Of a stretch of 64,000 bases of DNA, positions 2 to 19,299 are shown piece by piece. The position numbers and the translations under genes were made by a program. Below the pieces are notes generated by a model that was not told the origin of the DNA, did not search any database, and saw only the letters and a program-made list of their open reading frames with translations. Position 1 is the stretch's first letter, and each line of letters begins with the position of its first letter. The DNA is from Nitrosophilus kaiyonis (GTDB taxonomy: Bacteria; Campylobacterota; Campylobacteria; Campylobacterales; Nitratiruptoraceae). The stretch is taken from positions 597,501-661,500 of the forward strand of contig NZ_AP025696.1 in the NCBI RefSeq assembly GCF_027943725.1. The letters run 5' to 3'.

Positions 2-121
2 TTAGAAGAATCTTTTAAAATAATTGATAAAAAAGAGGCTGAAAAATTTAAAAGATTAAGATATGAACTTTATAATTTGGAAAAAGAAATTTTAAATATT
101 ACTCCATCTCAATTCTCATAA
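2..121 (+). CDS. C-terminal end of an unidentified protein (partial)
   Basis: An open frame enters from the left edge and stops at TAA 119-121, leaving about 39 residues. The visible peptide is charged and rich in Lys, Glu and Leu, so it is probably a helical or coiled-coil tail. It ends in TPSQFS. Its last 23 bases overlap the 3' end of the convergent hypA gene. Too little is left to name a family. Confidence 0.5.
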   Translation, partial: LEESFKIIDKKEAEKFKRLRYELYNLEKEILNITPSQFS

Positions 122-446
122 GATACATATCTTCACCACTTAATACCTCCAAATCTACACCTTTACAATTTGTACATTCAAAAATCAAAGATTTATGGTC
201 TAACTCATTTATACTATTGCACTCTTTACATTTAACTTTTAATGGATCTATTATCATTTCAAAAGTAGCTTCTTCGCACACAGTTCCTTTTTTGAAAGTA
301 TTAAAGGCACTCTCAAGTAAATAAGGCTCCACTCCACTTAAAACTCCAATCTTAACTACTACTTTTATAACTTTTTTACCTCTATTTTTTTTAACATTAT
401 CCTCTATAATATCTAAAAGACTTTGAACAATAGAATATTCATGCAT
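99..446 (-). CDS. hypA: Hydrogenase maturation nickel metallochaperone HypA
   Basis: HypA helps HypB put nickel into the [NiFe]-hydrogenase large subunit. The 115-residue reading starts at MHEYSIVQSLL, whose Met-His N-terminus supplies nickel ligands in the family. The open frame extends 20 codons further upstream, but those residues do not resemble HypA and lie inside hypX. The C-terminal half has the zinc site as two CxxC pairs (CKEC near residue 73, CTNC near residue 91). It is the last gene of the nickel transporter-hypBCDEXA operon. Its start overlaps the hypX stop by 8 bases, which suggests coupled translation. It meets the partial plus-strand gene tail to tail. Confidence 0.93.
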   Translation of the reverse strand: MHEYSIVQSLLDIIEDNVKKNRGKKVIKVVVKIGVLSGVEPYLLESAFNTFKKGTVCEEATFEMIIDPLKVKCKECNSINELDHKSLIFECTNCKGVDLEVLSGEDMYLMRIEME

Positions 447-2115: not shown

Positions 2116-3101
2116 ATTCTTGGCAAAATCTCCCCTGTTGGCATATCTAAAAACCGTGTTGTTCCCCACTCGCTTTGTAAAATGACACGACCAGGATAAG
2201 AATCACTCACTTCTCCAACAATCGCAGCATAAGGATTATGTTTTTGTAAAATATTTTGAGCTCTCTTTGCATCTTTTGAATCAACCACAAGTATAAATGT
2301 TCCTTCATTTGCTAAAACAAATGGTTCAAACCCAAGTATCTCACAAATCCCTTTAACACCTTCATCCACACTAAATTTACTCTCTTTTATTTCCATTGTC
2401 ATGTTTGTTACCATTGCCCACTCATTTAAAACTGCAGCCACACCTCCCCTTGTAGCATCTCGCATTGCCTTTATTTTAAGATTAGCTTCTATAAGTTCTT
2501 CTACAATTGGCCATAGGGATTTACAATCGCTTTGAATGGTGTTTGTAAGTTCTATTCCTTCACGTCCTGCAAATATGGTAGCTCCATGTCTTGCAATATC
2601 ACCACTTACTAAAAGTGCATCTCCTACTTCAATGTTTTCTTGAGACGATTGAATAACTCTTTCACCAATGGCAGAAATATTTATATAAACTCCATCACAG
2701 CTTCCCTTAGGTACCACTTTTGTATCGCCTGTCACAATTGCAGCACTATTCACACTAAGCTCATTTTTCATACTTCTCACTATCTTTTCTAAATCACGAA
2801 GCAAAAACCCCTCTTCTATAATAAATGAAAGGCTCAAATATTTTGGCTTTGCTCCCATCATAGCCAAATCGTTGCAACTTCCAGCAATTGATAGCTTTCC
2901 AATGTCACCACCAGGAAAAAAGATAGGAGAAATAGTAAATGAATCTGTTGTAAAAGCAGGATTTGTCAAAGATGGTAAAGCAGTGGCATCTTCAGCCTTT
3001 TGGAGATGTTCATTTTGCAAATGGCGCTGGATCGTTTTTTGGATAAGCTCCATATTTTCTACACCGCCATTTCCCATAGCAAGTGAAACAACCTTTTTCA
3101 T
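2109..3101 (-). CDS. hypE: Hydrogenase maturation protein HypE (carbamoyl dehydratase)
   Basis: HypE is an ATP-dependent enzyme of the AIR-synthase/ThiL superfamily. It accepts a carbamoyl group from HypF on its C-terminal cysteine and dehydrates it to thiocyanate, the source of the cyanide ligands on the iron. The 330-residue protein ends in GEILPRIC, the conserved PRIC tail that carries the acceptor Cys. It also has FFPGGDIGKLSIAGSCNDLAMMGA near residue 60 and TGDTKVVPKG near residue 125. The start MKKVVSLAMGNGG overlaps the hypD stop by 4 bases. Length and motifs are complete. Confidence 0.96.
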   Translation of the reverse strand: MKKVVSLAMGNGGVENMELIQKTIQRHLQNEHLQKAEDATALPSLTNPAFTTDSFTISPIFFPGGDIGKLSIAGSCNDLAMMGAKPKYLSLSFIIEEGFLLRDLEKIVRSMKNELSVNSAAIVTGDTKVVPKGSCDGVYINISAIGERVIQSSQENIEVGDALLVSGDIARHGATIFAGREGIELTNTIQSDCKSLWPIVEELIEANLKIKAMRDATRGGVAAVLNEWAMVTNMTMEIKESKFSVDEGVKGICEILGFEPFVLANEGTFILVVDSKDAKRAQNILQKHNPYAAIVGEVSDSYPGRVILQSEWGTTRFLDMPTGEILPRIC

Positions 3102-4240
3102 TGAACCTCCTGCAAAAGATTGCCATACTTATAGTATGCAGCACATGCTCCTTCGCTGCTTACCATACAACTTCCCAGAGGTTTTTGCGGTGTACAGGCA
3201 GTGCCAAAGACTTGGCACTCTGTCGGTTTTGCCATTCCCCGCAAAATATCGCCACAGATGCAGAGTTTATGATCCTCAATCTCCTCTTTGGGAAGGTTGT
3301 AAAGCTTTTCAGCATCCAAATGTTCATATTCTTTTTTAAGTTTCCATGCACTTTTTGGAATATTTCCAAGCCCTCGCCACTTAAAAAGATCTCTCTTTTC
3401 AAAATATTTTTCAATTAAATTTTGAGCATTGATATTTCCATTGCGGTTAACGCTTCTTTTATACTGGATCTCTACTTCATAGCGATTTTCTAAAAACTGA
3501 CGAACAAGCATCAAAACAGCTTCCATTACATCGACCGGTTCAAATCCAGCAACAACAACAGGTCTATTATATTTTTTAGGAAACTCTTCATAGATTTTGC
3601 TTCCAGTAATTACGCTTACATGGCTTGGTCCCAAAAAAGCATCGATTCTATTATTGTAGCTGTCAATATGCTCATCACGACTATCAATCAATTCTCTCAT
3701 CACTTCTGGAACCGTCACATGATTAATGTGATAAAAAATATTATTTATGTTCTGTTTTAAGGCACTCTCAATGAGTGCAGCTGTCATCGGTGTGGTAGTC
3801 TCAAAACCGATAGCAAAAAAGATAATCTTTTTCGTAGGGTTCTCTTTTGCAATCTTTAATACATCCAAAGGGCTATATACAAATCTTACATCTGCCCCTT
3901 TGCTTCTTGCATCTTGCAAGCTTCCTTGGCTTCCTGGCACCTTTATCATATCTCCAAGAGTACACAAGATCACATCCTCTTGCATTGCTAAAATATAGGC
4001 ATGATCAATCCGCTCTTTTGGCATAATGCAAACTGGACATCCAGGGCCATGGATAAAACGGATATTGGATGGCAAAAGTTGTAAAAGGCCATATTTCATA
4101 ATCGTATGGGTATGCCCCCCGCAAACCTCCATTATGTTTATAGGAAAATCAAGCTTTCTTGCCTCTTTTTGGATCGCTTTTGCAAGAGCTTTGATCGCTT
4201 TTGGATCACGAAATTTTTCATAAAAATCTTTAAGTTCCAC
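3098..4240 (-). CDS. hypD: Hydrogenase maturation protein HypD (Fe-S scaffold)
   Basis: HypD together with HypC holds the iron while CN and CO are attached. Conserved motifs are CGGHTHTI, GPGCPVC and GFETT in the N-terminal half. The C-terminal Fe-S cluster region is CICGDILRG, then GTACTP, then LGSCMVSSEGACAAYY. Three starts are possible. ATG at 4270 has no good Shine-Dalgarno. ATG at 4246 has AGGAG directly against it. GTG at 4240 has AGGAG six bases upstream and gives MELKDFYEKFRDPKAI, a natural HypD beginning, so I prefer it. The gene overlaps hypC upstream by 11 bases and hypE downstream by 4. Confidence 0.95.
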   Translation of the reverse strand: MELKDFYEKFRDPKAIKALAKAIQKEARKLDFPINIMEVCGGHTHTIMKYGLLQLLPSNIRFIHGPGCPVCIMPKERIDHAYILAMQEDVILCTLGDMIKVPGSQGSLQDARSKGADVRFVYSPLDVLKIAKENPTKKIIFFAIGFETTTPMTAALIESALKQNINNIFYHINHVTVPEVMRELIDSRDEHIDSYNNRIDAFLGPSHVSVITGSKIYEEFPKKYNRPVVVAGFEPVDVMEAVLMLVRQFLENRYEVEIQYKRSVNRNGNINAQNLIEKYFEKRDLFKWRGLGNIPKSAWKLKKEYEHLDAEKLYNLPKEEIEDHKLCICGDILRGMAKPTECQVFGTACTPQKPLGSCMVSSEGACAAYYKYGNLLQEVQ

Positions 4241-4523
4241 TGCCATCTCCTGGGCAAATGTCACTCTCATTTATAAGTTGCTCTTTTTCACTCTCCTCCA
4301 TCTTTTCTATTATATCTTGATATAGGGCAATGGACTCTTTTGCATACTCTTCATCGATTATATTCATCGCATATCCTATATGAATAAGAACAAAATCCCC
4401 TACCTTGACTTCATCTGCTATAAAATCGATTCCAACTTCTCTTTGCACACCCAAAGTATCTACAATAGCAGTACATTTTTCTTGATCGATACTTACAACC
4501 TTGCTTGGAATTGATAGACACAT
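4230..4523 (-). CDS. hypC: Hydrogenase maturation chaperone HypC
   Basis: HypC is a small OB-fold chaperone that carries the Fe(CN)2CO unit from the HypD complex to the hydrogenase large subunit. The N-terminus MCLSIPSKVV has the essential Cys2. VGDFVLIHIGYAM near residue 42 is typical of HypC/HupF. At 97 residues it is slightly long, with an acidic C-terminal tail. Its ATG shares one base with the hypB stop (position 4523) and its end overlaps hypD. Only one HypC-type chaperone is seen, so it probably serves both hydrogenases (inference). Confidence 0.95.
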   Translation of the reverse strand: MCLSIPSKVVSIDQEKCTAIVDTLGVQREVGIDFIADEVKVGDFVLIHIGYAMNIIDEEYAKESIALYQDIIEKMEESEKEQLINESDICPGDGSGT

Positions 4524-5251
4524 TAGCGCATCTCCTTTTTAAATGAAATCCATTTTGCAAGCCTTTGGATTGATTCCTCATCCTTTGTAGAGATTTCCAA
4601 AATATCTACATTTGGTTTGAGTCTTCTTGCTGTTTCTTTAGCTTTTTGTATATCAAAATCAAAATATGGTAAAAGATCGGTTTTTGTAATGAGAATAAGA
4701 TCAGCTTGTCTAAACATTACAGGGTATTTTTCTATCTTGTCATCCCCTTCTGGAACACTTACTAAAACGATATTAATATGTGCTCCAACATCATAACTTG
4801 CAGGACACACTAAATTGCCAACATTTTCGATAAAACAGACATCAATTTCATCTAATTTAATATGATGCAAACCCTTATGAACCATAAAGGCATCTAAGTG
4901 ACATGCACTTCCTGTAGTGATTTGGTAAGCCTGTACCCCTTTTGCTCTGATACGATCTGCATCCCTGTTCGTTTCCAAATCTCCTTCAATCACTGCAAAT
5001 TTAAATCTATCTATTTCGGCTAGCTTCTCTAAAAGCGAAGTCTTACCACTTCCTGGACTACTCATAAGATTGATTGCTAATACTCCTGCTTTGTCAAAAT
5101 GAGACCTGTTATGCGTTGCTTCATGGTCATTTTTATCAAGTATTTTTGTAATTATTTCTATTGTTTTTGTGTCATTGAGCTGGGGGTTTGTATGAAGCTC
5201 ATGAGTATGCTCATGATTATCTGTTATGCTGCATCCACAATCTTTGCACAT
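4523..5251 (-). CDS. hypB: Hydrogenase nickel incorporation GTPase HypB
   Basis: HypB is a SIMIBI GTPase that delivers nickel with HypA. The N-terminus MCKDCGC has the CxxCGC high-affinity metal motif, followed by a short His-containing stretch (NHEHTHELH) instead of the long poly-His of some homologues. The P-loop is SSPGSGKTSLLEKL near residue 62. The base-recognition motif TKTD is near residue 195. The metal-binding G-domain residues in SACHLDAFMVHKGL are present. At 242 residues it is within the family range. It is the first hyp gene after the nickel transporter, 12 bases away. Confidence 0.96.
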   Translation of the reverse strand: MCKDCGCSITDNHEHTHELHTNPQLNDTKTIEIITKILDKNDHEATHNRSHFDKAGVLAINLMSSPGSGKTSLLEKLAEIDRFKFAVIEGDLETNRDADRIRAKGVQAYQITTGSACHLDAFMVHKGLHHIKLDEIDVCFIENVGNLVCPASYDVGAHINIVLVSVPEGDDKIEKYPVMFRQADLILITKTDLLPYFDFDIQKAKETARRLKPNVDILEISTKDEESIQRLAKWISFKKEMR

Positions 5252-5263
5252 TTTCTCTCCTCC

Positions 5264-5905
5264 TTAAAAAAACATATTTGTGCCAACAATTAATGAAATT
5301 ACTCCTGCTGTTGCAAAAGCAAACTGAACATTTTTTTGAGTTTGTAACAGATTTTCATTGACAAGTGATATAAAATATCCAAAAACTAAAAATACAAGCA
5401 TTACGCCAACTGTAAAACTTGCTACCATCAAAAGATTAACTTCATGATGAGCAATAGCGCTCAGAGTTATGAGCATACCTCGTACACCCCCTATTCCCAT
5501 AAGAGTACCAACAGTAAGAGCAGAGGTTATCTGTTTTTTTTCACTATGTTCATGAATTTTGCCATACCATATATGGATATGTTTTTTACCATCATGCTCA
5601 TGCCATCCAACATTAATACGACCACTCAAAGCCATAAAAAGTAAAAAAAGTCCAATTGCTATAATAACACTTGAACTAATATAATCACCCCATGCAAGAA
5701 TCTCTTCATTAATGTCAATATGTTGTAAAAGTTTTGCAAAAATAAAAAGTGTAACACCGTGCCCTATAGCAAAAGCAAGGGTAATAAGCATCGTTTTCTT
5801 TTTACTCTTACCAATACTAAAATCAGTAATGGCTGTTAGGTGATCTGGACCAAAAGCGTGTAAAATACCATACCAAAAGATTAAAAGAAGCGGTAAAGAA
5901 TCCAT
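5264..5905 (-). CDS. Nickel/cobalt transporter, UreH/NicO-like membrane protein
   Basis: This 213-residue inner-membrane protein has about six hydrophobic segments. The first segment carries HAFGPDHLTAI, the His-x4-Asp-His type metal signature of the NiCoT/UreH/NicO group. A second histidine occurs in AFAIGHGVTLF near residue 47. A polar His-rich loop near residues 100-120 contains HEHDGKKHIHIWYGKIHEH and may sequester metal. As first gene of the operon ending in hypA it most likely supplies nickel for hydrogenase maturation. An efflux role is possible from the family alone. An operator-like palindrome overlapping a TATAAT box lies just upstream. Confidence 0.8.
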   Translation of the reverse strand: MDSLPLLLIFWYGILHAFGPDHLTAITDFSIGKSKKKTMLITLAFAIGHGVTLFIFAKLLQHIDINEEILAWGDYISSSVIIAIGLFLLFMALSGRINVGWHEHDGKKHIHIWYGKIHEHSEKKQITSALTVGTLMGIGGVRGMLITLSAIAHHEVNLLMVASFTVGVMLVFLVFGYFISLVNENLLQTQKNVQFAFATAGVISLIVGTNMFF

Positions 5906-5921
5906 AATCTTCCTTTATATG

Positions 5922-5938
5922 AATAGTTGTTCACTATT
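5922..5938. promoter_or_regulatory. Inverted repeat overlapping the promoter of the nickel/hyp operon
   Basis: The sequence AATAGT-TGTTC-ACTATT is a perfect 6-bp inverted repeat with a 5-bp spacer. On the minus strand it starts inside a TATAAT box (plus-strand 5936-5941) that lies 31 bases before the nickel transporter ATG, and T-rich sequence lies further upstream. A protein bound here would cover the -10 box and the start point. The binding protein is not known. The TetR protein of the hup operon or a nickel regulator are candidates. The site is also upstream of the divergent gene at 5990. Confidence 0.5.
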
Positions 5939-5989
5939 ATAGTAATATTTGGTAAAATAAAAATAAAAGAAAAAAATAGTTATATAAAA

Positions 5990-6637
5990 ATGGAACCAGA
6001 TATGAGATGTATTTATTGTAATAATGGGACTTATCTTCTTAAAAATGGCTATAGAAAATGTAAAGTATGTAAAAGAAAATTTAGTCCTCAAAAAATTATT
6101 AGAAAACAGAAAATATTGGACTGTTTCTGCAAAAATTTGACTATCAATCAATGTACAAAAGAGAGTAAATATAACTATATTACAATTAAAAATTATTATG
6201 AAGATTTTAGAAAAAAGATAGCTTTTTTTATGGAAGAGGAGTATCTCTCTCGTAAAGATATAAAAGCATATGAAGAGTATATCTATTTGGAACACTCAAA
6301 AGATCCGAAAAAAGATATTTTTGATGGATATAATTTTTTAACATTCGATTATGGAGGAAAAATCTATAATCTATTGATGCCTAATCTTTATAGATTCAAG
6401 CCCTATTTTAGTAAAGATGGATTAAATGAGATATACTATAGGGAATTTAAAAGTTTTTTACGAATCTCTAAAGTGAAAAACAATGTTCACAATAGTCTCA
6501 TTTACAATTTTTGGAATTATCTAGAAGATTTTATGCCAAAATTTAAGGGAATAAAAAGAGAAAACTTTTTCTATTACCTCAAAGAGGCAGAATTTAAATT
6601 CAATTTTGATTGTCAAAAATTAAAGGAAATAGTATGA
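5990..6637 (+). CDS. Transposase-like (IS1595/ISXO2-type) zinc-ribbon protein
   Basis: The protein has about 215 residues if it starts at MEPDMRCIYC; ATG 6002 (MRCIYC) is an alternative. It opens with a CxxC...CxxC zinc ribbon (CIYC, then CKVCKRKFS), as in IS1595-type transposases. It ends with NFWNYLEDFMPKFKGI...FFYYLKEAEFKFN, which resembles the C-terminus of that family. The catalytic DDE region is hard to recognise. I see no terminal inverted repeats or target duplications. The stop TGA overlaps the ATG of the next gene (ATGA), so it sits inside a co-translated operon. This favours a domesticated protein, perhaps a DNA-binding regulator, over a mobile element (inference). Confidence 0.6.
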   Translation: MEPDMRCIYCNNGTYLLKNGYRKCKVCKRKFSPQKIIRKQKILDCFCKNLTINQCTKESKYNYITIKNYYEDFRKKIAFFMEEEYLSRKDIKAYEEYIYLEHSKDPKKDIFDGYNFLTFDYGGKIYNLLMPNLYRFKPYFSKDGLNEIYYREFKSFLRISKVKNNVHNSLIYNFWNYLEDFMPKFKGIKRENFFYYLKEAEFKFNFDCQKLKEIV

Positions 6638-8521: not shown

Positions 8522-10630
8522 TCATAATTTTTTGAGTGCATACCAAAGCTGCCCCAAACTAATCCCACCATCATTGATTGGAGTTTGCGTTGGAAAGAAG
8601 TAAGTGATTCTGTTTTGTTGTAGTTTTTTAATACTATTTTCAAGCAGTGTTTTGTTTTGAAAAACACCACCAGTAAGTATAACTGGAAGTTTATTTTGTT
8701 TTGCAGTCTCTATAATAATGGTAGTAAGCGTATTTAAAAATTTTGTTGGAATATTTTCTTTTTTATCTTTTAGAAGCGCTTCAAAATCGATATCAATTAC
8801 TCCATTATTTATATAAAAATCATACCTATCCTCTCCGCCTCTGTACGCTTTTTCTACCAAAAGTCCGGTATAGCCTTCATACTCTTGGTATTTGCAAAGT
8901 TCTGAAATATAGGCTATAGCATCAAAAAGTCTTCCAACAGAACTTGTTTCAAAACAGTTGATATTTTTTTCATAAGCAAGATTGAAAAGTTTATCTTCTA
9001 CTTCAAAACCATATTTTTTTAATAGACTCCAAGCAATAAATTTAATATTTTTAATTGCTTTTTCTCCGCCAGCAATTTTTAGATAGTCAAAATGGTATTT
9101 TCTCTCATCACCTACAAATATCTCCCCACCCCATACTTTTCCATCATCACCATATCCTGTTCCATCCCAGCTAAATCCAAGAAATTCCTCATATGAGAGT
9201 GCATGATTAGTTAGTTCCATCTCTGCTTTTGCAGCATAAATGTGAGCAAGATGATGTTGCACTTGAATAGTTTGAAATCCTGAGGATTTAGCATATTGTG
9301 TTGTCTCATACTTTGGATGCTTATCGCAAACTATCACCTCTGGTGTAAAATCATACATTTTTTTGAAATCTTCAATCACTTGCATAAAATATTCATAACT
9401 TTGAATATTTTTAATATCTCCTATATGAGGTGATAGGATGACACTGTTTGCAAAACTTAGCGCAATTGTGTTTTTTTGCCTCGCACCAACTGCTAAGATA
9501 GCAGGTAGTTGTTTAGAAATATAAAAACTTTTTGGAGCATATCCTCTACTAAGTCTATAAAATAGCGGCTTTTTATCTGCACTGACTAGGACACTATCAT
9601 CGCAACTGCGAACAATTTCTCTGTTGTAATATAAAACTTTTTGCGTAAATTTTTTAATATTTTTTTCATCTTTTATAATTGGTTCATCTGATATGTTTGC
9701 ACTTGTTACCACTAAAGGGGAATCAATCAAAGAAAAGAGCAGATAATAAATTGGTGAATATGGTAAAAAAACCCCTAACCTATCAATATCCGGCGCCACA
9801 TCTTCAAAATACTCTTTTGATTTTACAATAACAATAGGAGATTCTTTTGATAAAATAAGTTTTTCTTCATATTCATTAAGTTTACAGACCTCTTTTATTT
9901 TATCTATTGAGGGAAACATCATTGCAAAAGGTTTTTTGGGTCTTCTTTTGATTTGTCGTAGCTTGTAAGCAGATTTAGGTACACATACAAGATGATATCC
10001 ACCTAATCCTTTTATAGCAACAATCTTGCCATTTTGAATATCTTTTGCTACTGCTTTAACTGCTTCATATCCTTGTAGTTCACCATAAAAAAGCTTTGGT
10101 CCACATCTATTACATCCAATTGGTTGAGCATGGAAAAAGCGGCTATTTGGGTCATTGTACTCCCTTTGACACTCTTTACACATAGGAAAATTTTCCATTG
10201 ATGTATTTTCTCTATCATAAGGAAGATCTTTTATAATAGTATAGCGAGGTCCACAGTTTGTACAATTGATGAGAGGGTAATGGTATCGTCTACTCTTGGA
10301 ATCAAAAAGATCATTTAAACACTCATCACATATAGATATATCTGGAGATAAAAATGTCTCCTTCTTTCCAACTTTACTATCTATAATAGTAAAATCTTCA
10401 AAGTTTTGAATTGGAGTATCTTCTATGCTCAATGAAAATATTTTTGCTAAAGGGGGAAGTTTTGATTTTAGATACTCTATAAAAAGTTGCTCCTGTTCCC
10501 CCTCCACTACAATCTCTACGCCATCGCTACAGTTTCGAATGAATCCTTTGAGATTTAGTTCATTAGCAAGTTTATATACAAAGGGACGAAAGCCCACACC
10601 CTGGATAATCCCTTTAACAAATATTCTCAT
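8522..10630 (-). CDS. hypF: Carbamoyltransferase HypF
   Basis: HypF uses carbamoyl phosphate and ATP to make the carbamoyl group passed to HypE. Domains in order: acylphosphatase (VKGIIQGVGFRPFVYKLA, residues 5-22); two zinc fingers (CDECLNDL, CTNCGPRYT, CKECQREY, CNRCGP, about residues 99-175); a YrdC-like domain (IAIKGLGGYHLVC); and a Kae1-like domain with HHLAHIYAAKAE and TGGVFQNKTLLE near the end. At 702 residues it is slightly shorter than the usual 750. Its ATG shares base 10630 with the hydE stop, so it is the last gene of the hydABCDE-hypF unit. Confidence 0.95.
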   Translation of the reverse strand: MRIFVKGIIQGVGFRPFVYKLANELNLKGFIRNCSDGVEIVVEGEQEQLFIEYLKSKLPPLAKIFSLSIEDTPIQNFEDFTIIDSKVGKKETFLSPDISICDECLNDLFDSKSRRYHYPLINCTNCGPRYTIIKDLPYDRENTSMENFPMCKECQREYNDPNSRFFHAQPIGCNRCGPKLFYGELQGYEAVKAVAKDIQNGKIVAIKGLGGYHLVCVPKSAYKLRQIKRRPKKPFAMMFPSIDKIKEVCKLNEYEEKLILSKESPIVIVKSKEYFEDVAPDIDRLGVFLPYSPIYYLLFSLIDSPLVVTSANISDEPIIKDEKNIKKFTQKVLYYNREIVRSCDDSVLVSADKKPLFYRLSRGYAPKSFYISKQLPAILAVGARQKNTIALSFANSVILSPHIGDIKNIQSYEYFMQVIEDFKKMYDFTPEVIVCDKHPKYETTQYAKSSGFQTIQVQHHLAHIYAAKAEMELTNHALSYEEFLGFSWDGTGYGDDGKVWGGEIFVGDERKYHFDYLKIAGGEKAIKNIKFIAWSLLKKYGFEVEDKLFNLAYEKNINCFETSSVGRLFDAIAYISELCKYQEYEGYTGLLVEKAYRGGEDRYDFYINNGVIDIDFEALLKDKKENIPTKFLNTLTTIIIETAKQNKLPVILTGGVFQNKTLLENSIKKLQQNRITYFFPTQTPINDGGISLGQLWYALKKL

Positions 10631-12384
10631 TACACTCCCAATAAAGCATTTTCTTTATCTATTGGATACTCAATATTGACTTTTGTCATCGGTGCATTTC
10701 TTACAAACCTACTAAAAAAGGCACTATTTGCGATATATGCTCCACATAGAACAATATACTTAGCTTTTGATTCTCTCAAGATTGAGACAGCTTGAGAGCT
10801 TAAAAAATCACCCAAAGACTCAAAAATAGAATATGCTAACAGTTTTGAATCAGCTTCGGCTAAAACAAAACTCATAATAGAAGCGTAAAAACTTGAATAA
10901 TCAAAACCGTTTTCTACCACTCTACAATCAATACTAACACCTCCTTTACCTCCAAATTCAAGACTAAATCTATTGAAAGCTTCAAAATCTCTATCAAATC
11001 CAATAACTCTTGCAGCCTTTAAAAGAAAATCTCTCTCTTCTTCAAAAGCTGCCCATCTTTTTGGATATTTTTTTTGAAACTGTTCTACAACTTTTCTTTT
11101 TGGCTCAAAAATGATTTTCCCAAATTCAAAAACCTCTTTAGTTACTTGCTTTTTATAAAAAAACTTGACTTTACTTGAAAAATAGACTCCAACAGTTGGC
11201 TCTATTATGGTATGCTCTTTTAAAACACTTTCAAAAGCAGCTCTTGATAGATCTTGCACTCTTATATGAGAATGCTCAATTGGCTCTTCTTTAAATACTA
11301 TGATGGAGTCTGTTTCTACATTATCAAAATGCTCTACTTTATCAATGATGCCATTGTACATTAAAAAGGAGTCTAAAAGAGCTGTTTTAGAACTATCACA
11401 ATATTTTGGAAAAAGGGATTCACTTTCGGGGCGAAAAAAGGAATATTGCTTATTGATAAAATATTTTGGTGCTTTATAAAATTCTATTGGAAGTTCAAAA
11501 TCAATAAATATATCAGCCTCTTCTTTCTCATCAAAATAGCAGTAGTCTTCATTGAGTGATGCCATAAGAAGCGTTGTAAAACCGTCCCATACACCAACAG
11601 CTTCAACAATTTCACCACTATTTGATGTAAGATAAAGATGAGGTCTTTCAATACTAAAAAGGGTTCTTTTTTCCATTGGTAGTATCAAAAATGTATCATT
11701 TAAGCGATTAATAAGCACAAAGCTTTGTATATCTTTTTCCAAATAGAATCGCTTATATCCTCTAAACGTTTTTATACGAACCGATTTGCCATTCTTTATA
11801 GCATTGGCTGCAATATCAAATATCTGTTTATAATCCTCTTTTTCATTGGCAAATAAAACTTTTGAGCCCTTTTTGTCAGTTAGTTTCAAAGGAATATTAC
11901 ACTCTATGCAGGTAATGAGTGGATAGTTTTTTCGAAAAGGATTTGATTTAAGCTCTTCTTGACATTTACTACAAGGTTTGAAAAAGTTCATCAATGTATT
12001 GGAACGCATAAATGGATAGTGTACCACAAAACTACTCTGACAGCCACATGAGTTACAGCTGGTAAATGGATAGTAATATCTTCTTGAACTTGGATCTAAC
12101 ATCTCTTTAATGCAATTTGGGCATAAAGAGATTGATGATGGAATATATTCAATATGTGATAAAGATGGGAACTCGTCACTTACTTGAACCTGTTTGAAAA
12201 ATAGTGAGTTGTAGAGATGCTCATCTAAAGCTTTTGTAAACTCTTCAATATTTTCATCAAATGATACATAAATAAATGGAAATTTTACATCTATCTTTAT
12301 AGAAGTGTTGGTTAGCTCTGCAATTACTTGAATACGTTGTAAAAAATATGTGGTATGGGAATAAAACTCAAACTGCAATGTCAT
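10630..12384 (-). CDS. hydE: HydE-like hydrogenase accessory protein, degenerate HypF paralogue
   Basis: This 584-residue protein follows hydD, the position of hydE in Helicobacter and Wolinella hydABCDE loci. It keeps the HypF zinc-finger layout (CPNCIKEMLDPSSRRYYYP near residue 92, then CNSCG, CSKC, CIEC). It lacks the acylphosphatase motif and the conserved YrdC and Kae1 catalytic stretches. The C-terminal part weakly echoes the end of HypF (YIVLCGAYIANSAFFSRF against the TGGVFQN region). It is probably a maturation or assembly factor specific to this hydrogenase, since HydE is required in Helicobacter pylori, but its biochemistry is unknown to me. It overlaps hydD by 17 bases. Confidence 0.7.
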   Translation of the reverse strand: MTLQFEFYSHTTYFLQRIQVIAELTNTSIKIDVKFPFIYVSFDENIEEFTKALDEHLYNSLFFKQVQVSDEFPSLSHIEYIPSSISLCPNCIKEMLDPSSRRYYYPFTSCNSCGCQSSFVVHYPFMRSNTLMNFFKPCSKCQEELKSNPFRKNYPLITCIECNIPLKLTDKKGSKVLFANEKEDYKQIFDIAANAIKNGKSVRIKTFRGYKRFYLEKDIQSFVLINRLNDTFLILPMEKRTLFSIERPHLYLTSNSGEIVEAVGVWDGFTTLLMASLNEDYCYFDEKEEADIFIDFELPIEFYKAPKYFINKQYSFFRPESESLFPKYCDSSKTALLDSFLMYNGIIDKVEHFDNVETDSIIVFKEEPIEHSHIRVQDLSRAAFESVLKEHTIIEPTVGVYFSSKVKFFYKKQVTKEVFEFGKIIFEPKRKVVEQFQKKYPKRWAAFEEERDFLLKAARVIGFDRDFEAFNRFSLEFGGKGGVSIDCRVVENGFDYSSFYASIMSFVLAEADSKLLAYSIFESLGDFLSSQAVSILRESKAKYIVLCGAYIANSAFFSRFVRNAPMTKVNIEYPIDKENALLGV

Positions 12385-12919
12385 TTATATCTTTCATTGA
12401 AGGGTTTGCATACTTTTGGATAATTTTGTCTAACATTACATCATCTTTTTTCCTATACCCAATACCACTCTTTTGCAACTCCTTCAAAAGGGTTTGAATA
12501 TAATCTTTGAAAGATTGTTTCATAGCATCTGTAAGCCCTATTCCAACACTTTCAATATCCTTTGGAACTATTCCAATGATGTTTACTTTGGCTATTGATT
12601 CAAGCATACTGCAAATCTCAAGCATCTCAACCACTTCAACTTCATGTGCAGTTTTTCTATACTCTCCAAGCCCAAGCAAAACCTCACTTGGTAGGTTATA
12701 TACTGAGCCTGGAGCATCTTCTATAGAGACTGTATCTAAAATTATTACTTTATCATATTCTTGATAATATCGCATCAGTTTAAAGCCCAATGTTCCGCCA
12801 TCGATAATATCTATATTTTTATCAAAACTGTAATTACTCTCTAAATACTTTGACGCATATACCCCAATTCCTTCATCCATAAATAAAATATTACCTATTC
12901 CTATAATAGCTGTTTTCAA
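12368..12919 (-). CDS. hydD: Hydrogenase maturation endopeptidase HydD
   Basis: HydD belongs to the HybD/HupD protease family. It cuts the C-terminal peptide from the large subunit after nickel insertion. The motif TAIIGIGNILFMDEGIGVY has the metal-binding Glu/Asp of the family. The second conserved acidic region is VIILDTVSIEDAPGS, and a conserved His lies in TAHEVEVVEML. The open frame could begin at ATG 12955, but that would overlap hydC by 35 bases. A TTG at 12919 has AGAGG five bases upstream and gives MKTAIIGIGN, the usual family start, so it is chosen. The likely substrate is HydB; the HupL in this window has no tail to cut. Confidence 0.92.
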   Translation of the reverse strand: MKTAIIGIGNILFMDEGIGVYASKYLESNYSFDKNIDIIDGGTLGFKLMRYYQEYDKVIILDTVSIEDAPGSVYNLPSEVLLGLGEYRKTAHEVEVVEMLEICSMLESIAKVNIIGIVPKDIESVGIGLTDAMKQSFKDYIQTLLKELQKSGIGYRKKDDVMLDKIIQKYANPSMKDINDIAV

Positions 12920-12920
12920 C

Positions 12921-13616
12921 TCAACCTCTCTTAAATTTATATCCACCAAATACAATAGCGATATCTCCTTCTCTCCAAAAGATAGTTCGCCATACTACAT
13001 AATAGATATGAAACATTATCCATACAAGAATGATATACATTGTTAGATGATGGACATATCGCACATCCATTTTAGTTCCTCCACAAACAGGCACTGTCCA
13101 ATCAGTTGCTACATGTAATATCCATGGCCACCAAGAACCTATACTACTCATCCCAGACTCTAAACCATGAACATAAAGTTGCAATCCTGTTAAAAGCATC
13201 CAGGCCAAAAGCAGGTGAAATATAGTAAAAAAGACAACATGAAAACTATCTTCATGGCTGCTATCAAATCTTTTCACACGGTTGAGAGTAATTAAATTGA
13301 TAAAAACCTCCCAAAACTCTTTGATATTTTTGGCATTTGGTATGAGCTTTTTAACAGGTTTTTCAAATCTGCTAAAAAAGTAAAGATATGCTATGACAAT
13401 AGAGCTTACATCAAAAATAATTGCTGCATAAAAATGGATCCATCGATTCCAAGCCATCACATACTTTTGTACCGCCGGTTCATTTATAAGCGTTTGATAA
13501 TATGGATGACCAATATAAAACCCAGTTACAACAGCTGCAACCATACACAAAGCAACCACCCAGTGATTAAGACGCATAAAGAGTGTCATTCGCTTTACTT
13601 TTTGATACTTTTTCAT
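12921..13616 (-). CDS. hydC: [NiFe]-hydrogenase b-type cytochrome subunit HydC
   Basis: HydC anchors the hydrogenase dimer in the cytoplasmic membrane and moves electrons from the small subunit to quinone through two b hemes. The 231-residue protein has four main hydrophobic segments. Candidate heme histidines include RLNHWVVALCM near residue 17, WNRWIHFYAAI near residue 60, FTIFHLLLAWM near residue 133, and HHLTMYIILVWIMFHIYYV near residue 190. It sits 10 bases after hydB and directly before hydD in the usual operon order. Confidence 0.94.
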   Translation of the reverse strand: MKKYQKVKRMTLFMRLNHWVVALCMVAAVVTGFYIGHPYYQTLINEPAVQKYVMAWNRWIHFYAAIIFDVSSIVIAYLYFFSRFEKPVKKLIPNAKNIKEFWEVFINLITLNRVKRFDSSHEDSFHVVFFTIFHLLLAWMLLTGLQLYVHGLESGMSSIGSWWPWILHVATDWTVPVCGGTKMDVRYVHHLTMYIILVWIMFHIYYVVWRTIFWREGDIAIVFGGYKFKRG

Positions 13617-13626
13617 TTCAGCCCCC

Positions 13627-15351
13627 TTAAATTGAGCAAGAGGTATTTACTTTAAACTCACCTAAATTTTTTCCTTTTGTATCCACTATATGCACTGCAC
13701 ATGCGATACATGGGTCAAAACTGTGTATTGTTCGTAAAATCTCCAAAGGCTCTTCAGGTTTTGCCACTTTTGTACCAACAAGACTTGCTTCATAGGCACC
13801 CATTCTATTTTTATAATCTCTTGGTGCTGCATTCCATGTAGATGGTACAACTGCTTGATAATTTTCAACTTTGCCATCTGTAATTTTTACCCAATGTCCC
13901 AATGCTCCTCTTGGAGCCTCTTCAAGTCCATAGCCTTGTGCGTTTTTACTTACATAATCAAAATCAAATTCCGTCCATGTTGACAGATCTCCTGCTGCGA
14001 CATTGGCTGCAAGCTCATCTACCCAATCAAAAAGCATATCAGCCATAAGTTCTGTTTCAATTGCCCTTGCCGCAGTTCTACCAACGGTTGAAAAGAGTAC
14101 TTTTGCAGGCAGGTTTGCATTTTTCAAAAATCTGTTCACATAGTCGCTAATTCGTTTATCACCTTTTATATATCCTACAACCATTCTTGCAAGAGGTCCA
14201 ACCTCAACTCTTGTGTCGTCATAGATTGGCGATTTAATCCAAGAGTATTTTCCTTTGGTATCAAGATAGGCAATACCATCTTCTTTTTTACCAAATCCTG
14301 TGTAGTTCGGAATAGTTTGTCCATCAAATGGATGAAGTGGCTTATCTCCATTATACCAAGAATGTGTTACATCTTCTGCCACTTTTTCTTGATCAAACTC
14401 TTGATATTTTCCATCGATTACAAGTCCACTTGGGAAAAGAAGCTCAGATTTGTAAAATCCATTATCTTGAAGTCTAAATCCACCATAAGATAGATAGTTT
14501 TTTAGACCTGCTCCCGTACCATCGAGCGCCTCATCTCCATACATAGTTCCAGCCATATAGATATCAGGCAGATATGCTCCTTTGATAAATCGTGTAAAGC
14601 CTTTTAAAAGATCTTTATATAGAGCAATTCTTGCTGGATTTTTTATATCTTGAACACAGGTTACACCACCAACAACTATGCTTTGTGGATGTGGATTTTT
14701 CCCTCCAAAAATAGCCATCATTTTTGCTGCATCACGTTGTAAATCAAGGGCTTGAAGATAGTGTGTCACTGCAAGCAAGTTTTGCTCAGGAGTTAGTTTA
14801 TAGTGTGGATTTCCCCAGTATCCTTTTGCAAAAAGACCTAATCGACCTTGCTTGACAAATTTCTTTAGGCGATCTTGCACCTCTTTAAATTTTACACTAT
14901 CTGCAACATATGGAGTTGTTCCAGCCACATTTGCCCATTTTTTTGCTTCATCTACTGTCTTTGCTGGATCAGCTTCCAAAGCTTTTGTGATATCTACCCA
15001 ATCAAGTGCATGAAGATGATAAAAATGTACAACATGATCATGTACATAGAGTGCCCCTTGTATGAGGTTTCTCACAAGCCTTGCATTTTTTGGAATTGTC
15101 ACACCAAAAGCATGCTCAACCGCCTCAATACTTCTTTGATAGTGGGTTCCTGTGCACACACCACAAATTCTCATTGCAAGCAGACCACAGTCTCTTGGAT
15201 CACGCCCCTTTAAAATCTCTTCAATACCTCGAAACATCGTTGAAGAGCTGTAAGCATCTACGATAGTGTTGTTTTCATCGATGACTGCTTCTATACGCAA
15301 ATGCCCCTCTATTCTGGTAATAGGATCAACAACTATATGTTTTGTACTCAT
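13627..15351 (-). CDS. hydB: [NiFe]-hydrogenase large (catalytic) subunit HydB
   Basis: HydB is the H2-activating subunit of the membrane-bound uptake hydrogenase. The nickel ligands come from RICGVCTGTHYQ (L2 motif, near residue 62) and DPCIACAVH near the C-terminus. After that His a 20-residue tail (IVDTKGKNLG...) follows, which HydD would remove. The N-terminus VVDPITRIEGHLRIE is the L1 motif. The length of 574 is normal for group 1 enzymes. Its ATG overlaps the hydA stop by 4 bases. The gene looks less AT-rich than the housekeeping genes later in the window. Confidence 0.97.
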   Translation of the reverse strand: MSTKHIVVDPITRIEGHLRIEAVIDENNTIVDAYSSSTMFRGIEEILKGRDPRDCGLLAMRICGVCTGTHYQRSIEAVEHAFGVTIPKNARLVRNLIQGALYVHDHVVHFYHLHALDWVDITKALEADPAKTVDEAKKWANVAGTTPYVADSVKFKEVQDRLKKFVKQGRLGLFAKGYWGNPHYKLTPEQNLLAVTHYLQALDLQRDAAKMMAIFGGKNPHPQSIVVGGVTCVQDIKNPARIALYKDLLKGFTRFIKGAYLPDIYMAGTMYGDEALDGTGAGLKNYLSYGGFRLQDNGFYKSELLFPSGLVIDGKYQEFDQEKVAEDVTHSWYNGDKPLHPFDGQTIPNYTGFGKKEDGIAYLDTKGKYSWIKSPIYDDTRVEVGPLARMVVGYIKGDKRISDYVNRFLKNANLPAKVLFSTVGRTAARAIETELMADMLFDWVDELAANVAAGDLSTWTEFDFDYVSKNAQGYGLEEAPRGALGHWVKITDGKVENYQAVVPSTWNAAPRDYKNRMGAYEASLVGTKVAKPEEPLEILRTIHSFDPCIACAVHIVDTKGKNLGEFKVNTSCSI

Positions 15352-16577
15352 TCTTTATCTCCTTCACTTTTCTTTCCAGCAACTACACTTGCCGCAGCAT
15401 GAATTGCAATGCCTACACCAGCAGCAGTTAATAGTCCTAATCCAAACTCATCCACACTCTTTTCAACTCCGCCATCTGGAGCCATTTTGATATTTGCATC
15501 TGCCATAGGTCTTTCATATGCATATTTATCCCAAAATCCAGGCTCACTACATCCAATACATCCATGCCCTGAGCCAATTGGCCAGTTGACAGCTTCGTTA
15601 TAGCGTACAATTGAGCAGTTGTTAAATGTCATAGGACCTTTACATCCCATCTTATAAAGGCAGAAGTTGTTTTTCGCACCTTCATCGCCCCACTCTTCTA
15701 CAAACTCACCCGCATCAAAGTGTGCTCTTCTTTCACAATTATCGTGGATTCTATATCCAAAAGCAAATTTTGGTCGAAGAAGCGAATCAAGCTCTGGAAT
15801 TTGTCCAGTAAGAACATAATGTAAAATAACTCCAACCATATTTGCAGGATTTGCCGGACATGCTGGAATATTAATAATTGGTTTATTATTAACAACATCC
15901 ATAACACCCACTGCACCAGTTGGATTTGGAGCAGCGGCTGGAACACCACCAAATGTTGCACATGTTCCAACTGCTACTATTGCTGCTGCATCTTTGGCAA
16001 CTCTTTTTAGATGCTCTTCAAAAGTTTCACCACTTGCCCCGATCGTACACCACTCTCTTCCTGTACCTACTGGAATAGCACCTTCTACAAATAATAAATA
16101 CTTTCCTTTAAAATGCTCAATCGCATCTTCAAGCTGCGCTTCTGCTTGATGTCCAGCTGCAGCCATAAGAGTCTCTTGAAATTCCAGAGAAATGATTTCT
16201 AAAATAATCTCATCCACTTTTGGTCCATCACTTCTAATAAAAGCTTCCGAGTTTCCTGCACAATCTTGCAGCTCTATCCAAATTACTGGAACTCTTGTCA
16301 TCAGTTCAGCAGCTTCTGCTACAAGAGGGGTAAAAGAGCTAGGAAGCATCAGCATCGCTGTAGTTGCACTAGCCCACTTTAAAAAGTCTCTTCTAGAAAC
16401 TCCTTCATCTTCTAAAATCTCTTTAATGGAGATTTTACGAAGCGGCTCAATTTTTTTAAGCTCTTCGAGCCTCGCTTTACACTCTTTATAAAGTCTTGTA
16501 TAGTAGGCTTCACCTCTGTTTGTATCAACTCTGGCACTCTTGGTTGTAAAGAGCGAGCGAAGGTGTTCTCTATTCAT
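15348..16577 (-). CDS. hydA: [NiFe]-hydrogenase small subunit HydA, Tat-exported
   Basis: HydA carries the Fe-S relay of the periplasm-facing uptake hydrogenase. The Tat motif SRRDFLKW lies at residues 61-68, unusually deep after a charged N-terminal stretch, and is followed by a hydrophobic region. Fe-S ligands are visible in GTCATFGG, IPACPANP, the NCERRAHF region, YKMGCKGP, NNCSIV and GHGCIGCSEP. The proximal-cluster motif reads LQDCAGNSEAF, so the second Cys of CxxC is Asn. A C-terminal hydrophobic helix (LLTAAGVGIAIHAAASVVAG) would contact HydC. The start MNREHLRSL has AGGAGAGG upstream. The longer frame would place a palindromic operator inside the coding region. Confidence 0.95.
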   Translation of the reverse strand: MNREHLRSLFTTKSARVDTNRGEAYYTRLYKECKARLEELKKIEPLRKISIKEILEDEGVSRRDFLKWASATTAMLMLPSSFTPLVAEAAELMTRVPVIWIELQDCAGNSEAFIRSDGPKVDEIILEIISLEFQETLMAAAGHQAEAQLEDAIEHFKGKYLLFVEGAIPVGTGREWCTIGASGETFEEHLKRVAKDAAAIVAVGTCATFGGVPAAAPNPTGAVGVMDVVNNKPIINIPACPANPANMVGVILHYVLTGQIPELDSLLRPKFAFGYRIHDNCERRAHFDAGEFVEEWGDEGAKNNFCLYKMGCKGPMTFNNCSIVRYNEAVNWPIGSGHGCIGCSEPGFWDKYAYERPMADANIKMAPDGGVEKSVDEFGLGLLTAAGVGIAIHAAASVVAGKKSEGDKE

Positions 16578-16590
16578 AACCTCTCCTTTG

Positions 16591-16608
16591 ATTGAATACT
16601 CATTCAAT
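16591..16608. promoter_or_regulatory. Operator-like palindrome upstream of hydA
   Basis: ATTGAAT-ACTC-ATTCAAT is a perfect 7-bp inverted repeat with a 4-bp spacer, ending 14 bases before the hydA ATG. Size and form suit a TetR-type dimer site. The nearest regulator is the TetR gene of the hup operon, whose end is about 2.1 kb away. Binding here would block the leader or start region of the hydABCDE-hypF operon. The intergenic gap is only about 100 bases. Confidence 0.5.
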
Positions 16609-16681
16609 AATTTTAGCTAATATTACTTACAAATTACTTATGTATCACGCAAAATCTATGGTTTCTTATATATTTTTGGAA

Positions 16682-17881
16682 CTAATGTGTAGTGCATACA
16701 GAGCAGATATCAAAACTTCTAAAAATGAGTTCTGCCAATTGTTTATCTCTAAGCCCTCTAATTGCTTTTCTTGCAACACCTGGCTCTTTTTTTGTACCTT
16801 GTAAAAGATTCCATTGTGTTGGGGTAATAATTTGATATTTATCAATTTTTCTATCTTTAATCCAAATACGATGCAGTAATGAACCTCTTGCAGCTTCTAC
16901 AATACCTTCCCCATAGCCATCATTTATTTGTGATGATATATATGAGGGTTCTTCTAAACTGATAGTATCTAATAAATATTCAATTTTTTTCAAAATTATA
17001 TCTATCTCAACTATACGTGCTGAAACTCTTGTAATCAATGCATCTTTATATCGTCTATGCAGTTGCATTACTAAAGGGTGGCGAATTACTATCATCCTTG
17101 CTAATGGCCCAGTTTCATACATTTTTCCACGATACTTTATTGCATTATTGTTCTCTTCAATATATTTTGTAGAAATACTTTTTTTCACAGTTTTTAAAAT
17201 TTTTACAGAATCTACATAGGCACTCTTTCCAAAAACCACATACCTATCATAACTTTGTCCTACTTTACCAAATTTTAATAAGTAGCGAAAAACATCTCCA
17301 AAATCACTCTGTTCATTTTTCATATTATTTATATCAAAAGGCTCACATAAAAGATTTGATCTAATAATATCTTTTACATACTCAAGATAATTTTTTGCTT
17401 TATATATCTCTATATAAGACGGATCACATGTTACTCCACCTGGAAGCATATAGGAACTGTGTGGATATTGTCCACCAAAAAGAGCAATAATTTTGTTTAC
17501 TGCCACAATTGCAGGTTGTATTGTTAAAAATTTTGTATCTAAACCTACAAAAGGAACGATTACTAAATAAAACCATTTAAGATGATTTTGCACAACCTCA
17601 CAAAGGGTTGTAATCTCTCGAATAATTTTTGCTTTTTTGGGAGGAACTATTTTAAATGCATCCTCTAAAGCTTCTGCAGTGGCTCGCAAGTGTGCATGAC
17701 CACAAATTCCACAAATTCTTGGATTAATCACAAGTGCATCAAGGGGATCTTTCCCAACAAGAAGTTTTTCAAATCCACGGTAATGTTCAAATTTAATCTC
17801 TACATCTTCTATAATATCTTTATCCCAGAAATAGTGTAGATATACTTCTCCTTCTACTTTTTGTAAAATATCAATCTTCAT
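16682..17881 (-). CDS. hupL: Group 2-like [NiFe]-hydrogenase large subunit without C-terminal tail
   Basis: This 399-residue large subunit has RICGICGHAHLRATAEALE near residue 56 and PGGVTCDP near residue 151. It ends exactly at FDICSVCTTH, so there is no cleavable C-terminal extension. The absence of the tail is typical of H2-sensing HupV/HoxC proteins, which mature without a protease. The usual DPC is DIC here. It is shorter than HydB. It is encoded after hupS (11-base overlap) and a TetR gene in one operon. The product is probably cytoplasmic. Sensing or cytoplasmic H2 oxidation are the two likely roles, and sequence alone does not decide between them. Confidence 0.85.
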   Translation of the reverse strand: MKIDILQKVEGEVYLHYFWDKDIIEDVEIKFEHYRGFEKLLVGKDPLDALVINPRICGICGHAHLRATAEALEDAFKIVPPKKAKIIREITTLCEVVQNHLKWFYLVIVPFVGLDTKFLTIQPAIVAVNKIIALFGGQYPHSSYMLPGGVTCDPSYIEIYKAKNYLEYVKDIIRSNLLCEPFDINNMKNEQSDFGDVFRYLLKFGKVGQSYDRYVVFGKSAYVDSVKILKTVKKSISTKYIEENNNAIKYRGKMYETGPLARMIVIRHPLVMQLHRRYKDALITRVSARIVEIDIILKKIEYLLDTISLEEPSYISSQINDGYGEGIVEAARGSLLHRIWIKDRKIDKYQIITPTQWNLLQGTKKEPGVARKAIRGLRDKQLAELIFRSFDICSVCTTH

Positions 17882-18710
17882 TAAAAATTCTCTTATTAAG
17901 TCTTGGAATATAAAAACTCTTTGCTATTCCAGTAAGAGTTAGATATGCTCTTTTTGGTACTCCTAATGGCATCTTTGCAGGTATACCCATATGTGTTTTT
18001 GTTTTAAATAGATTATTAGTAGGAAAAGAAGGCTCAGTACATCCAAAACATGGAGTTCCAATACGTGTTTTTGAGCTTACTCCATTCCACAAAATCTTAT
18101 TACAGCTTCCATGTGTAAATGGTGCTTGGCATCCTTGTTCATAAAAAAGGCACCCCTCTTTAGTTCCAAAACTCTTGGCATCTATTTTCCATTCAAAATA
18201 TTCATTACGTATGCACCCACTATGTACTGTATATGCATAAATCTCTTTTGGTCTTTGGAAATTATCAATACGAATAGATTCACCCTTTTGTATAATATTT
18301 ATTGCAAAAGATATCCATTCTGGATGAGCAGGACAACCTGGAATATTGATAATATTTAGTGAATCTATTTGACGATCTTTGGCAAAATTAATTCCTCTTT
18401 CTCCCAAAATTCCACCATACACTGCACAACTTCCAACAGCTATAATATGTTTTGCTCTATTTTTTAATCTATTAAAAATCTCAATAAAGGAGCATCTTCC
18501 TCTATTAATATTGCCATAGGCTCCTTCTACTATCAATAGATCAAAATTATCCTCAAAATAACAGAGATCTTCTATTGATAGTTTAGAAGGTAAAAGAGGA
18601 TGATATAGAAACTCTATCTGCTTAATAAATGATGAAAGCTGTTCATAATGTAAAAAAGAGTGTGTGTTTCCATTACAAGTAATACCTTGTAACCAGATAG
18701 TTTTAACCAT
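17871..18710 (-). CDS. hupS: Group 2-like [NiFe]-hydrogenase small subunit, no signal peptide
   Basis: This 279-residue Fe-S subunit has no Tat signal, so the dimer with HupL stays in the cytoplasm. The proximal motif is WLQGITCNGNTHSFLH (CxxN), as in cyanobacterial HupS. The other ligand segments are AVGSCAVYGG, NIPGCPAHPEW, HSGCIRNEYF, EQGCQAP, SCNKILW and GTPCFGCTEPSFP. It overlaps tetR by 8 bases and hupL by 11, so the three genes are one transcript. No histidine kinase like HupT/HoxJ is seen beside it. The assignment to group 2 rests on size, lack of export signal and the CxGN motif. Confidence 0.85.
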   Translation of the reverse strand: MVKTIWLQGITCNGNTHSFLHYEQLSSFIKQIEFLYHPLLPSKLSIEDLCYFEDNFDLLIVEGAYGNINRGRCSFIEIFNRLKNRAKHIIAVGSCAVYGGILGERGINFAKDRQIDSLNIINIPGCPAHPEWISFAINIIQKGESIRIDNFQRPKEIYAYTVHSGCIRNEYFEWKIDAKSFGTKEGCLFYEQGCQAPFTHGSCNKILWNGVSSKTRIGTPCFGCTEPSFPTNNLFKTKTHMGIPAKMPLGVPKRAYLTLTGIAKSFYIPRLNKRIFNED

Positions 18711-19299
18711 TCTTTAAAGCTCTATAGATGTTATTGGCAATATCTTGTTGATAGTATGAAAGTTCATTAGGAAGCATTCCCTCTTCTTTCAAAAAAGCCA
18801 TACCACCTAAATATCCCATAAAAAGACCAAAAGCACAAAAAAAATCCTGATTTTTAAGCTCACCTTTGCTTACTCCCTCCTCAAAAAGTACCATTATCTC
18901 AGTCACAAATGGGCTTACACATATCATTCCTTCACAACCATTTTTAAATATTTCCTTATGTGATAGGTAAATGCGCAAAAAATATTGAATCAATTCAGAA
19001 CGTTTCTGTGCTATTTCAAAATAAAAAGCAACAATCTGCTCTATTTTCTCTTTTGTACTGATAGGCTTAAGATTTATCTGACGTATTTGATTTCCCAAAA
19101 TTTTAGAGATATAGAGCATAAGTTCTTTAGCAAGCGCATCTTTGGATGAAAAGTAGTTATATAAATTTCCAACACTCATACCTATCTCTTTGGCAATATC
19201 AGATATAGTAATTTCATAATAACCCTTCTTTGCAAAAAGCTGCAGGGCTGTATCCATGATTTCTATCTTTCTTTGCTCCTTTTTAATCTCTTTTTTCAT
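18703..19299 (-). CDS. TetR/AcrR-family regulator leading the hupSL operon
   Basis: This 198-residue protein has an N-terminal HTH (KIEIMDTALQLFAKKGYYE, then ISDIAKEIGMSVGNLYNYF, residues about 12-55) followed by a helical ligand-binding domain with no recognised specificity. AAGGAG precedes its ATG. Upstream, GGAGTATAAA occurs twice and may be promoter and leader sequence. It overlaps hupS by 8 bases, so regulator and cytoplasmic hydrogenase are made together. Candidate targets are the palindromes at 16591-16608 (hydA) and 5922-5938 (nickel/hyp). An H2-linked signal is inference. Confidence 0.9.
   Translation of the reverse strand: MKKEIKKEQRKIEIMDTALQLFAKKGYYEITISDIAKEIGMSVGNLYNYFSSKDALAKELMLYISKILGNQIRQINLKPISTKEKIEQIVAFYFEIAQKRSELIQYFLRIYLSHKEIFKNGCEGMICVSPFVTEIMVLFEEGVSKGELKNQDFFCAFGLFMGYLGGMAFLKEEGMLPNELSYYQQDIANNIYRALKNG

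Follow-up and report, generated by a model that had tools for sequence, protein, structure and literature searches.

The analysed window, a stretch of 64,000 nucleotides from the 1.77-Mb single-contig genome of Nitrosophilus kaiyonis, carries a compact trio of genes on its reverse strand. A TetR/AcrR-family regulator of 198 amino acids (tetR, 18703-19299; PF00440, 8.6e-17) is followed by hupS, which encodes the 279-residue small subunit of a cytoplasmic [NiFe] hydrogenase (17871-18710; PF14720, PF01058), and by hupL, which encodes a tail-less large subunit of 399 residues (16682-17881; PF00374). An earlier note on this DNA had claimed overlaps of 8 and 11 bases, and the open reading frames bear these out on the reverse strand at 18703-18710 (tetR/hupS) and 17871-17881 (hupS/hupL). 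No export signal was seen on inspection of the HupS N-terminus (MVKTIWLQGITCNGN), again as claimed. The ligand positions of the HupS iron-sulfur clusters are conserved: the proximal motif is of CNGN type, the distal positions are H163/C166/C187/C194 and the medial ones C203/C221/C224, as judged by invariant columns among HupS proteins and by an alignment with HoxB and HoxK. The Ni-Fe ligand cysteines and the catalytic arginine of HupL are likewise conserved, the invariant residues of this subunit being R55, C57, C60, R332, C393 and C396. The best sequence match of HupSL among solved structures was a hydrogenase-2 (7uur/7utd), which we take to be Huc of M. smegmatis. No gene for an electron acceptor or redox partner adjoins hupSL in the window cassette.

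HupL terminates with FDICSVCTTH, no tail follows, and all complete trio members examined are tail-less. The earlier statement that the protein stops at its final metal-ligand histidine thus holds for this genome, but the histidine itself is not strictly conserved among relatives. In several trio HupL proteins the last residue of CxxCxxH is glutamine or lysine (CTTQ, CTTK, CTVK; for example at loci L010, L051, L052, L057, L060, L061, L063 and L065), which seems unusual for a hydrogenase.

Two operons on the reverse strand are the predicted targets of the regulator. The first begins with hydA, the small subunit of a periplasmic uptake hydrogenase (15348-16577; TIGR00391, 1.4e-139; start taken as the ATG at 16577), continues with hydB, whose large-subunit product extends at its C-terminus beyond CxxCxxH (13627-15351), and is completed by hydC, the hydD protease, a HypF-finger protein and hypF (8522-13616). 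The second, the nickel/hyp operon (99-5905), encodes an unnamed 213-residue protein, HypB, HypC, HypD, a HypE-like (AIRS) protein, a HypX-like protein and HypA. The HypX-like protein (439-2169, reverse strand) has formyl-transferase C-terminal and enoyl-CoA hydratase domains, a hint that the CO ligand of the active site may be matured oxically.

The promoters of both operons contain palindromes that conform to a single 14-nt consensus, TGAAY-N4-RTTCA, a shared pattern that is new relative to the earlier note. The predicted operator of the hydA promoter (TGAATGAGTATTCA) occupies 16593-16606 of the reverse strand, next to a -10-like hexamer, TAAAAT (16610-16615, reverse strand), assigned from the offset pattern of sites; that of the nickel/hyp promoter (TGAACAACTATTCA) occupies 5920-5933 of the reverse strand, next to the hexamer TATAAT (5936-5941, reverse strand), assigned from sequence and offset pattern. 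Both palindromes had been noticed before, and both exist, with adjusted positions. The one at hydA had been given as 16591-16608 and placed at the start of the gene; its conserved 14-mer is 16593-16606, and it lies not at the start codon but in the promoter or 5' UTR, 15 nt before the likely ATG. The one at the nickel/hyp promoter had been given as 5922-5938, and its conserved 14-mer is 5920-5933. In the window, the palindromes start 2-3 nt downstream of their -10-like hexamers. Among relatives, such a hexamer ends 0-4 nt upstream of the operator in 42 of 62 sites, 27 of them at exactly 2 nt, as compared to 7-18 sites in each of the other offset bins. Since the box lies just upstream, the operator should cover the transcription start.

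Within its own genome the consensus occurs at only two sites, those of hydA and the nickel/hyp operon; reversing the pattern as a control gave 6 hits. This count is partly circular, because the consensus was first drawn from those very sites, and rarity of the motif was consequently rejected as evidence. Weight was put instead on conserved position in relatives. The palindrome was found within 300 bp before hydA in 48 of 53 genomes with the trio (accepting two sites with one changed base, TGAAT-N4-ACTCA) and in 2 of 30 trio-less genomes (Fisher p 8e-15, a nominal value since the species are related). It was absent before hydA in all seven trio-less genomes that were clade-matched by a hydA of 74-78% identity to the window's. 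A stricter motif (TGAATRRYYATTCA), counted over whole genomes, was present in 77 of the 114 genomes that have TetR and in 20 of the 283 that do not, and several genomes of family f9 that have two hydA operons carry the site before the second one as well. Eleven further sites were read in sister genomes. Ten stand directly before the nickel/hyp operon, nine of these before the gene of the 213-residue protein and one before hypB; the remaining site precedes a gene whose product starts MHIPDGYLSP and appears CbiM/NikM-like by eye. Three additional sites, chosen as extra, have no hydrogenase gene alongside. Counting against a sensory role of the trio are the five trio genomes in which the strict hydA site is missing and two trio-less genomes (L106, L119) in which an operator is present.

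These comparative patterns make it very likely that TetR binds the palindrome and represses the hyd and hyp operons, and the uptake-hydrogenase regulon very probably has TetR as its dedicated repressor. In S. multivorans, Kruse et al. (2017, PMC5357620) noted a TetR gene ahead of hupSL and proposed that its product acts on hupSL as a repressor, a role that would agree with the adjacency of tetR and with hupL transcripts that were hardly detectable in that organism. The operator map disfavors this as the main role. A site before tetR is strict at 1 of 53 loci and near (at least 9 of 10 matches) at 7 of 53, against 38 and 46 of 57, respectively, before hydA, and in the genome analysed here the pattern marks hydA and the nickel/hyp operon only. 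We therefore rejected repression of hupSL as the principal function and regard it as very improbable.

A survey of the trio in other genomes, which the earlier note had proposed, showed that TetR and HupL orthologues occur together in 112 of 397 Campylobacterota genomes and that the trio recurs at 9 of 20 Aquificota HupL loci. In the Campylobacterota, a TetR orthologue (E<=1e-35) was detected in 114 genomes and HupL (E<=1e-45) in 113. The single genome with HupL and no TetR (G323) has a contig end inside hupS (L142). The two genomes with TetR and no HupL, G176 (L141) and G375 (L140), lack HupSL between tetR and hydA and keep the hydA operator, which again counts against a sensory role; these loci are natural test cases for a TetR devoid of its HupSL partner. 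Relatives keep the order tetR-hupS-hupL, usually directly upstream of hydABCD...hypF. Trio and hydA are divergent in L007 and L059, and in one genome (L063/L064) the trio is apart from hydA and adjoins the nickel/hyp operon. Plasmid-borne copies of the trio with its hydrogenase cluster were observed in Sulfurimonas paralvinellae (L192, NZ_CP041407.1) and Sulfurovum mangrovi (L194, NZ_CP087125.1).

In the Aquificota, a profile search recovered HupL in 45 of 101 genomes. Of the 20 loci that were read, the nine with an adjacent TetR encode regulators of 51-59% identity, and several of these trio genomes have operator sites before hydA, hypB or hypC. The other Aquificota HupSL loci have no adjacent TetR, and several are ordered hypB-hupS-hupL-hypE-hypA-hypF, a further point against a sensory role. 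On a tree of HupL sequences, the genomes labeled as having TetR clustered, yet 7 changes were needed, some of them due to truncated contigs. The 112 genomes that share both support a link by descent between TetR and HupSL. The C-terminus of HupS also varies: tails resembling RLxKRLxD tend to mark TetR-linked genomes, and TetR-less Aquificota mostly have APERLKxED. The RLxKRLxD tail may possibly be a docking site.

Of the three proteins, TetR is the most conserved, with a mean column identity of 72% compared to 61% for HupS and 52% for HupL. The protein has the features expected of its family, namely the TetR_N helix-turn-helix, an all-helical ligand domain whose model matches TetR structures, and a palindromic operator over the target promoter, here a site predicted by comparative genomics. 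Its only conserved cysteines, C122 and C127, lie in the ligand domain and are invariant in 62 of 62 trio-type TetRs from two phyla. This C-x4-C pair was not found in paralogous TetRs of the same subfamily (L185-L191). Judging by genes named from their sequence, the paralogues in L187 and L190 adjoin a putative group 4-like hydrogenase cluster with hypA, and those in L188 and L191 adjoin putative molybdate-transport genes. The AlphaFold (AF2) model of TetR has a pLDDT of 90 overall and a dip over residues 111-130, the cysteine loop, for which an absent cofactor or partner may be one reason. A structure search aimed at a special TetR subfamily returned generic TetR structures alone, so this idea was rejected. 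FadR of B. subtilis (3whb) shares the fold (TM-score 0.82 by query length) and, like the trio TetR, has a palindromic operator, which in our case is predicted. However, the identity is about 19%, the trio TetR has the invariant cysteine pair, and its partner is a hydrogenase, whereas TetR repressors such as FadR are known to bind small ligands.

In the known H2-sensing circuits, HupUV-HupT-HupR and HoxBC-HoxJ-HoxA (group 2b), the regulator of uptake hydrogenase is likewise linked genetically to a cytosolic [NiFe] hydrogenase of two subunits that lacks a tail. HupL ends in CSVCTTH and HoxC in CMVCTVH, both lacking a cleavable tail, and soluble PAS kinases are encoded elsewhere in the genome, so that HupSL might be a sensor of the classical kind that signals to an unlinked HupT/HoxJ-like kinase. 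The sequences speak strongly against this. HupSL is only distantly related to HoxBC of C. necator (25% identity for the large and 31% for the small subunit), no close relation to HoxBC or HupUV being found, and the proximal-cluster motif is CGGC in HoxBC but of the Asn type, CNGN, in HupS. No PAS kinase is encoded in the cluster, in agreement with the earlier note, which had allowed for a HupT/HoxJ kinase elsewhere in the genome. When HoxJ was compared with 15 histidine-kinase-like proteins of the genome, the matches were distant (20-25% identity) and mostly confined to the kinase core; no HupT/HoxJ orthologue was recognised, and an unlinked kinase of this type was rejected. A classical sensor is accordingly a very improbable account of the trio. 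Tail-lessness was also discarded as proof of sensing, since a tail is equally missing from Aquificota HupL proteins that have no TetR next to them. Of the two residues of the narrow gas channel of HoxC (Ile and Phe, at provisionally mapped positions), the first is matched by I59 of HupL and the second is replaced by V107, which may count against a sensor; some relatives have Phe at the equivalent position.

HupSL is homologous to HupSL of the Aquificota and falls with it in a shared tree, and the campylobacterotal cytosolic enzyme has been classed as group 2d (PMC5401914). Enzymes of this group are described as a source of reductant for the rTCA cycle, whereas here the enzyme goes together with a TetR whose operators are predicted at the hyd and hyp promoters. 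A 2015 review listed sensor, rTCA-reductant and H2-evolution proposals for the cytoplasmic group 2 hydrogenase and called its role speculative (PMC4584964); the sensor proposal for such enzymes is credited there to Nakagawa et al. (2007), and H2 evolution to Campbell (2009). The literature is divided on catalytic H2 oxidation feeding reductive metabolism (PMC4584964, PMC4149538). If HupSL evolved H2 as a valve for reduced ferredoxin, as that citation of Campbell would have it, TetR would only adjust hydrogenase dosage; the window cassette has no ferredoxin gene or other partner and the predicted regulon is H2-uptake machinery, so we find this reading hard to credit.

The earlier note had offered as its own alternative a group 2d oxidizer with an unrelated regulator. 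An unrelated regulator is disfavored by the 112 shared genomes and the operators, but a catalytic HupSL whose TetR represses hyd and hyp in response to a different cue (nickel, O2, redox state or a metabolite) stands as a minority reading, unlikely in our judgment though worth serious weight. It would be in keeping with the intact active-site and cluster-ligand positions, the Aquificota HupSL loci without an adjacent TetR, the two genomes that keep TetR without HupSL, and the published view of these enzymes (PMC5401914, PMC4584964). Against it stand the near-perfect co-occurrence of TetR and HupSL with overlapping genes and the lack of a redox-partner gene in the window cassette. Furthermore, the cytoplasmic hydrogenase of S. 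denitrificans is transcribed, yet the soluble fraction showed no H2 uptake (Han and Perner 2014, PMC4149538), and the very low hupL transcript levels of S. multivorans (PMC5357620) would fit a regulator.

We favor the view, with a probability of roughly 0.6, that the trio is an H2-responsive regulatory cassette in which HupSL would provide the H2 input of TetR. The different H2-sensing circuit proposed in the earlier note is partly supported by the TetR-HupSL linkage in 112 genomes, the operators on the hydA and nickel/hyp promoters, and the kinase comparison. The main experimental point against it is that H2 caused no significant change in hydB of S. multivorans (PMC5357620). This organism also has a Hyf hydrogenase that is thought to make H2, and an H2-free state may thus not have been tested. 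The same study noted a missing H2 sensor and that regulation of hydrogenase genes in Epsilonproteobacteria was nearly unknown as of 2017. In the literature searched we found no publication linking the trio TetR to hydA or hyp operators, although such absence is no proof.

In the favored cassette, TetR would sit on 14-bp palindromes overlapping the likely transcription starts of the hydA...hypF and nickel/hyp operons, and HupSL and TetR, encoded by overlapping genes, would probably be translationally coupled. Once HupSL encounters H2, TetR would receive electrons or a redox-dependent contact, most likely through C122/C127 acting as a thiol switch or a metal or Fe-S site; TetR would then leave the DNA, and both operons would be induced. 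That the cysteine pair receives the signal is speculative, as is the direction of the switch. Since HupSL needs nickel and Hyp proteins, such a switch would in addition be a readout of the capacity to mature hydrogenase. The stronger proposal is that TetR, with its cysteine pair, receives electrons or a redox-gated contact straight from a [NiFe] hydrogenase, so that a one-component repressor takes the place of the kinase and NtrC-type activator of the HupUV/HoxBC circuits across Campylobacterota and part of the Aquificota; we advance it tentatively, as slightly less than an even bet. One-component H2 sensing by a hydrogenase and a TetR looks like a previously undescribed arrangement. Hydrogen is a main fuel of vent Campylobacterota and Aquificota, and a sensory reading could settle the purpose of a puzzling cytoplasmic hydrogenase. 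If it is true, many of the hydrogenases whose annotation assigns them to uptake or the rTCA cycle would be sensors, hydrogenase gene counts in metagenomes would be read differently, and a direct link from hydrogenase to repressor would constitute a compact H2 biosensor.

A further gene is oriented divergently to the nickel/hyp operon, and the operator lies between the two. It encodes a Cys-rich protein (5927-6637, forward strand) with no Pfam hit, homologues of which adjoin hyp or hydrogenase genes in L007, L059, L132, L135, L139, L140 and most of L216-L226.
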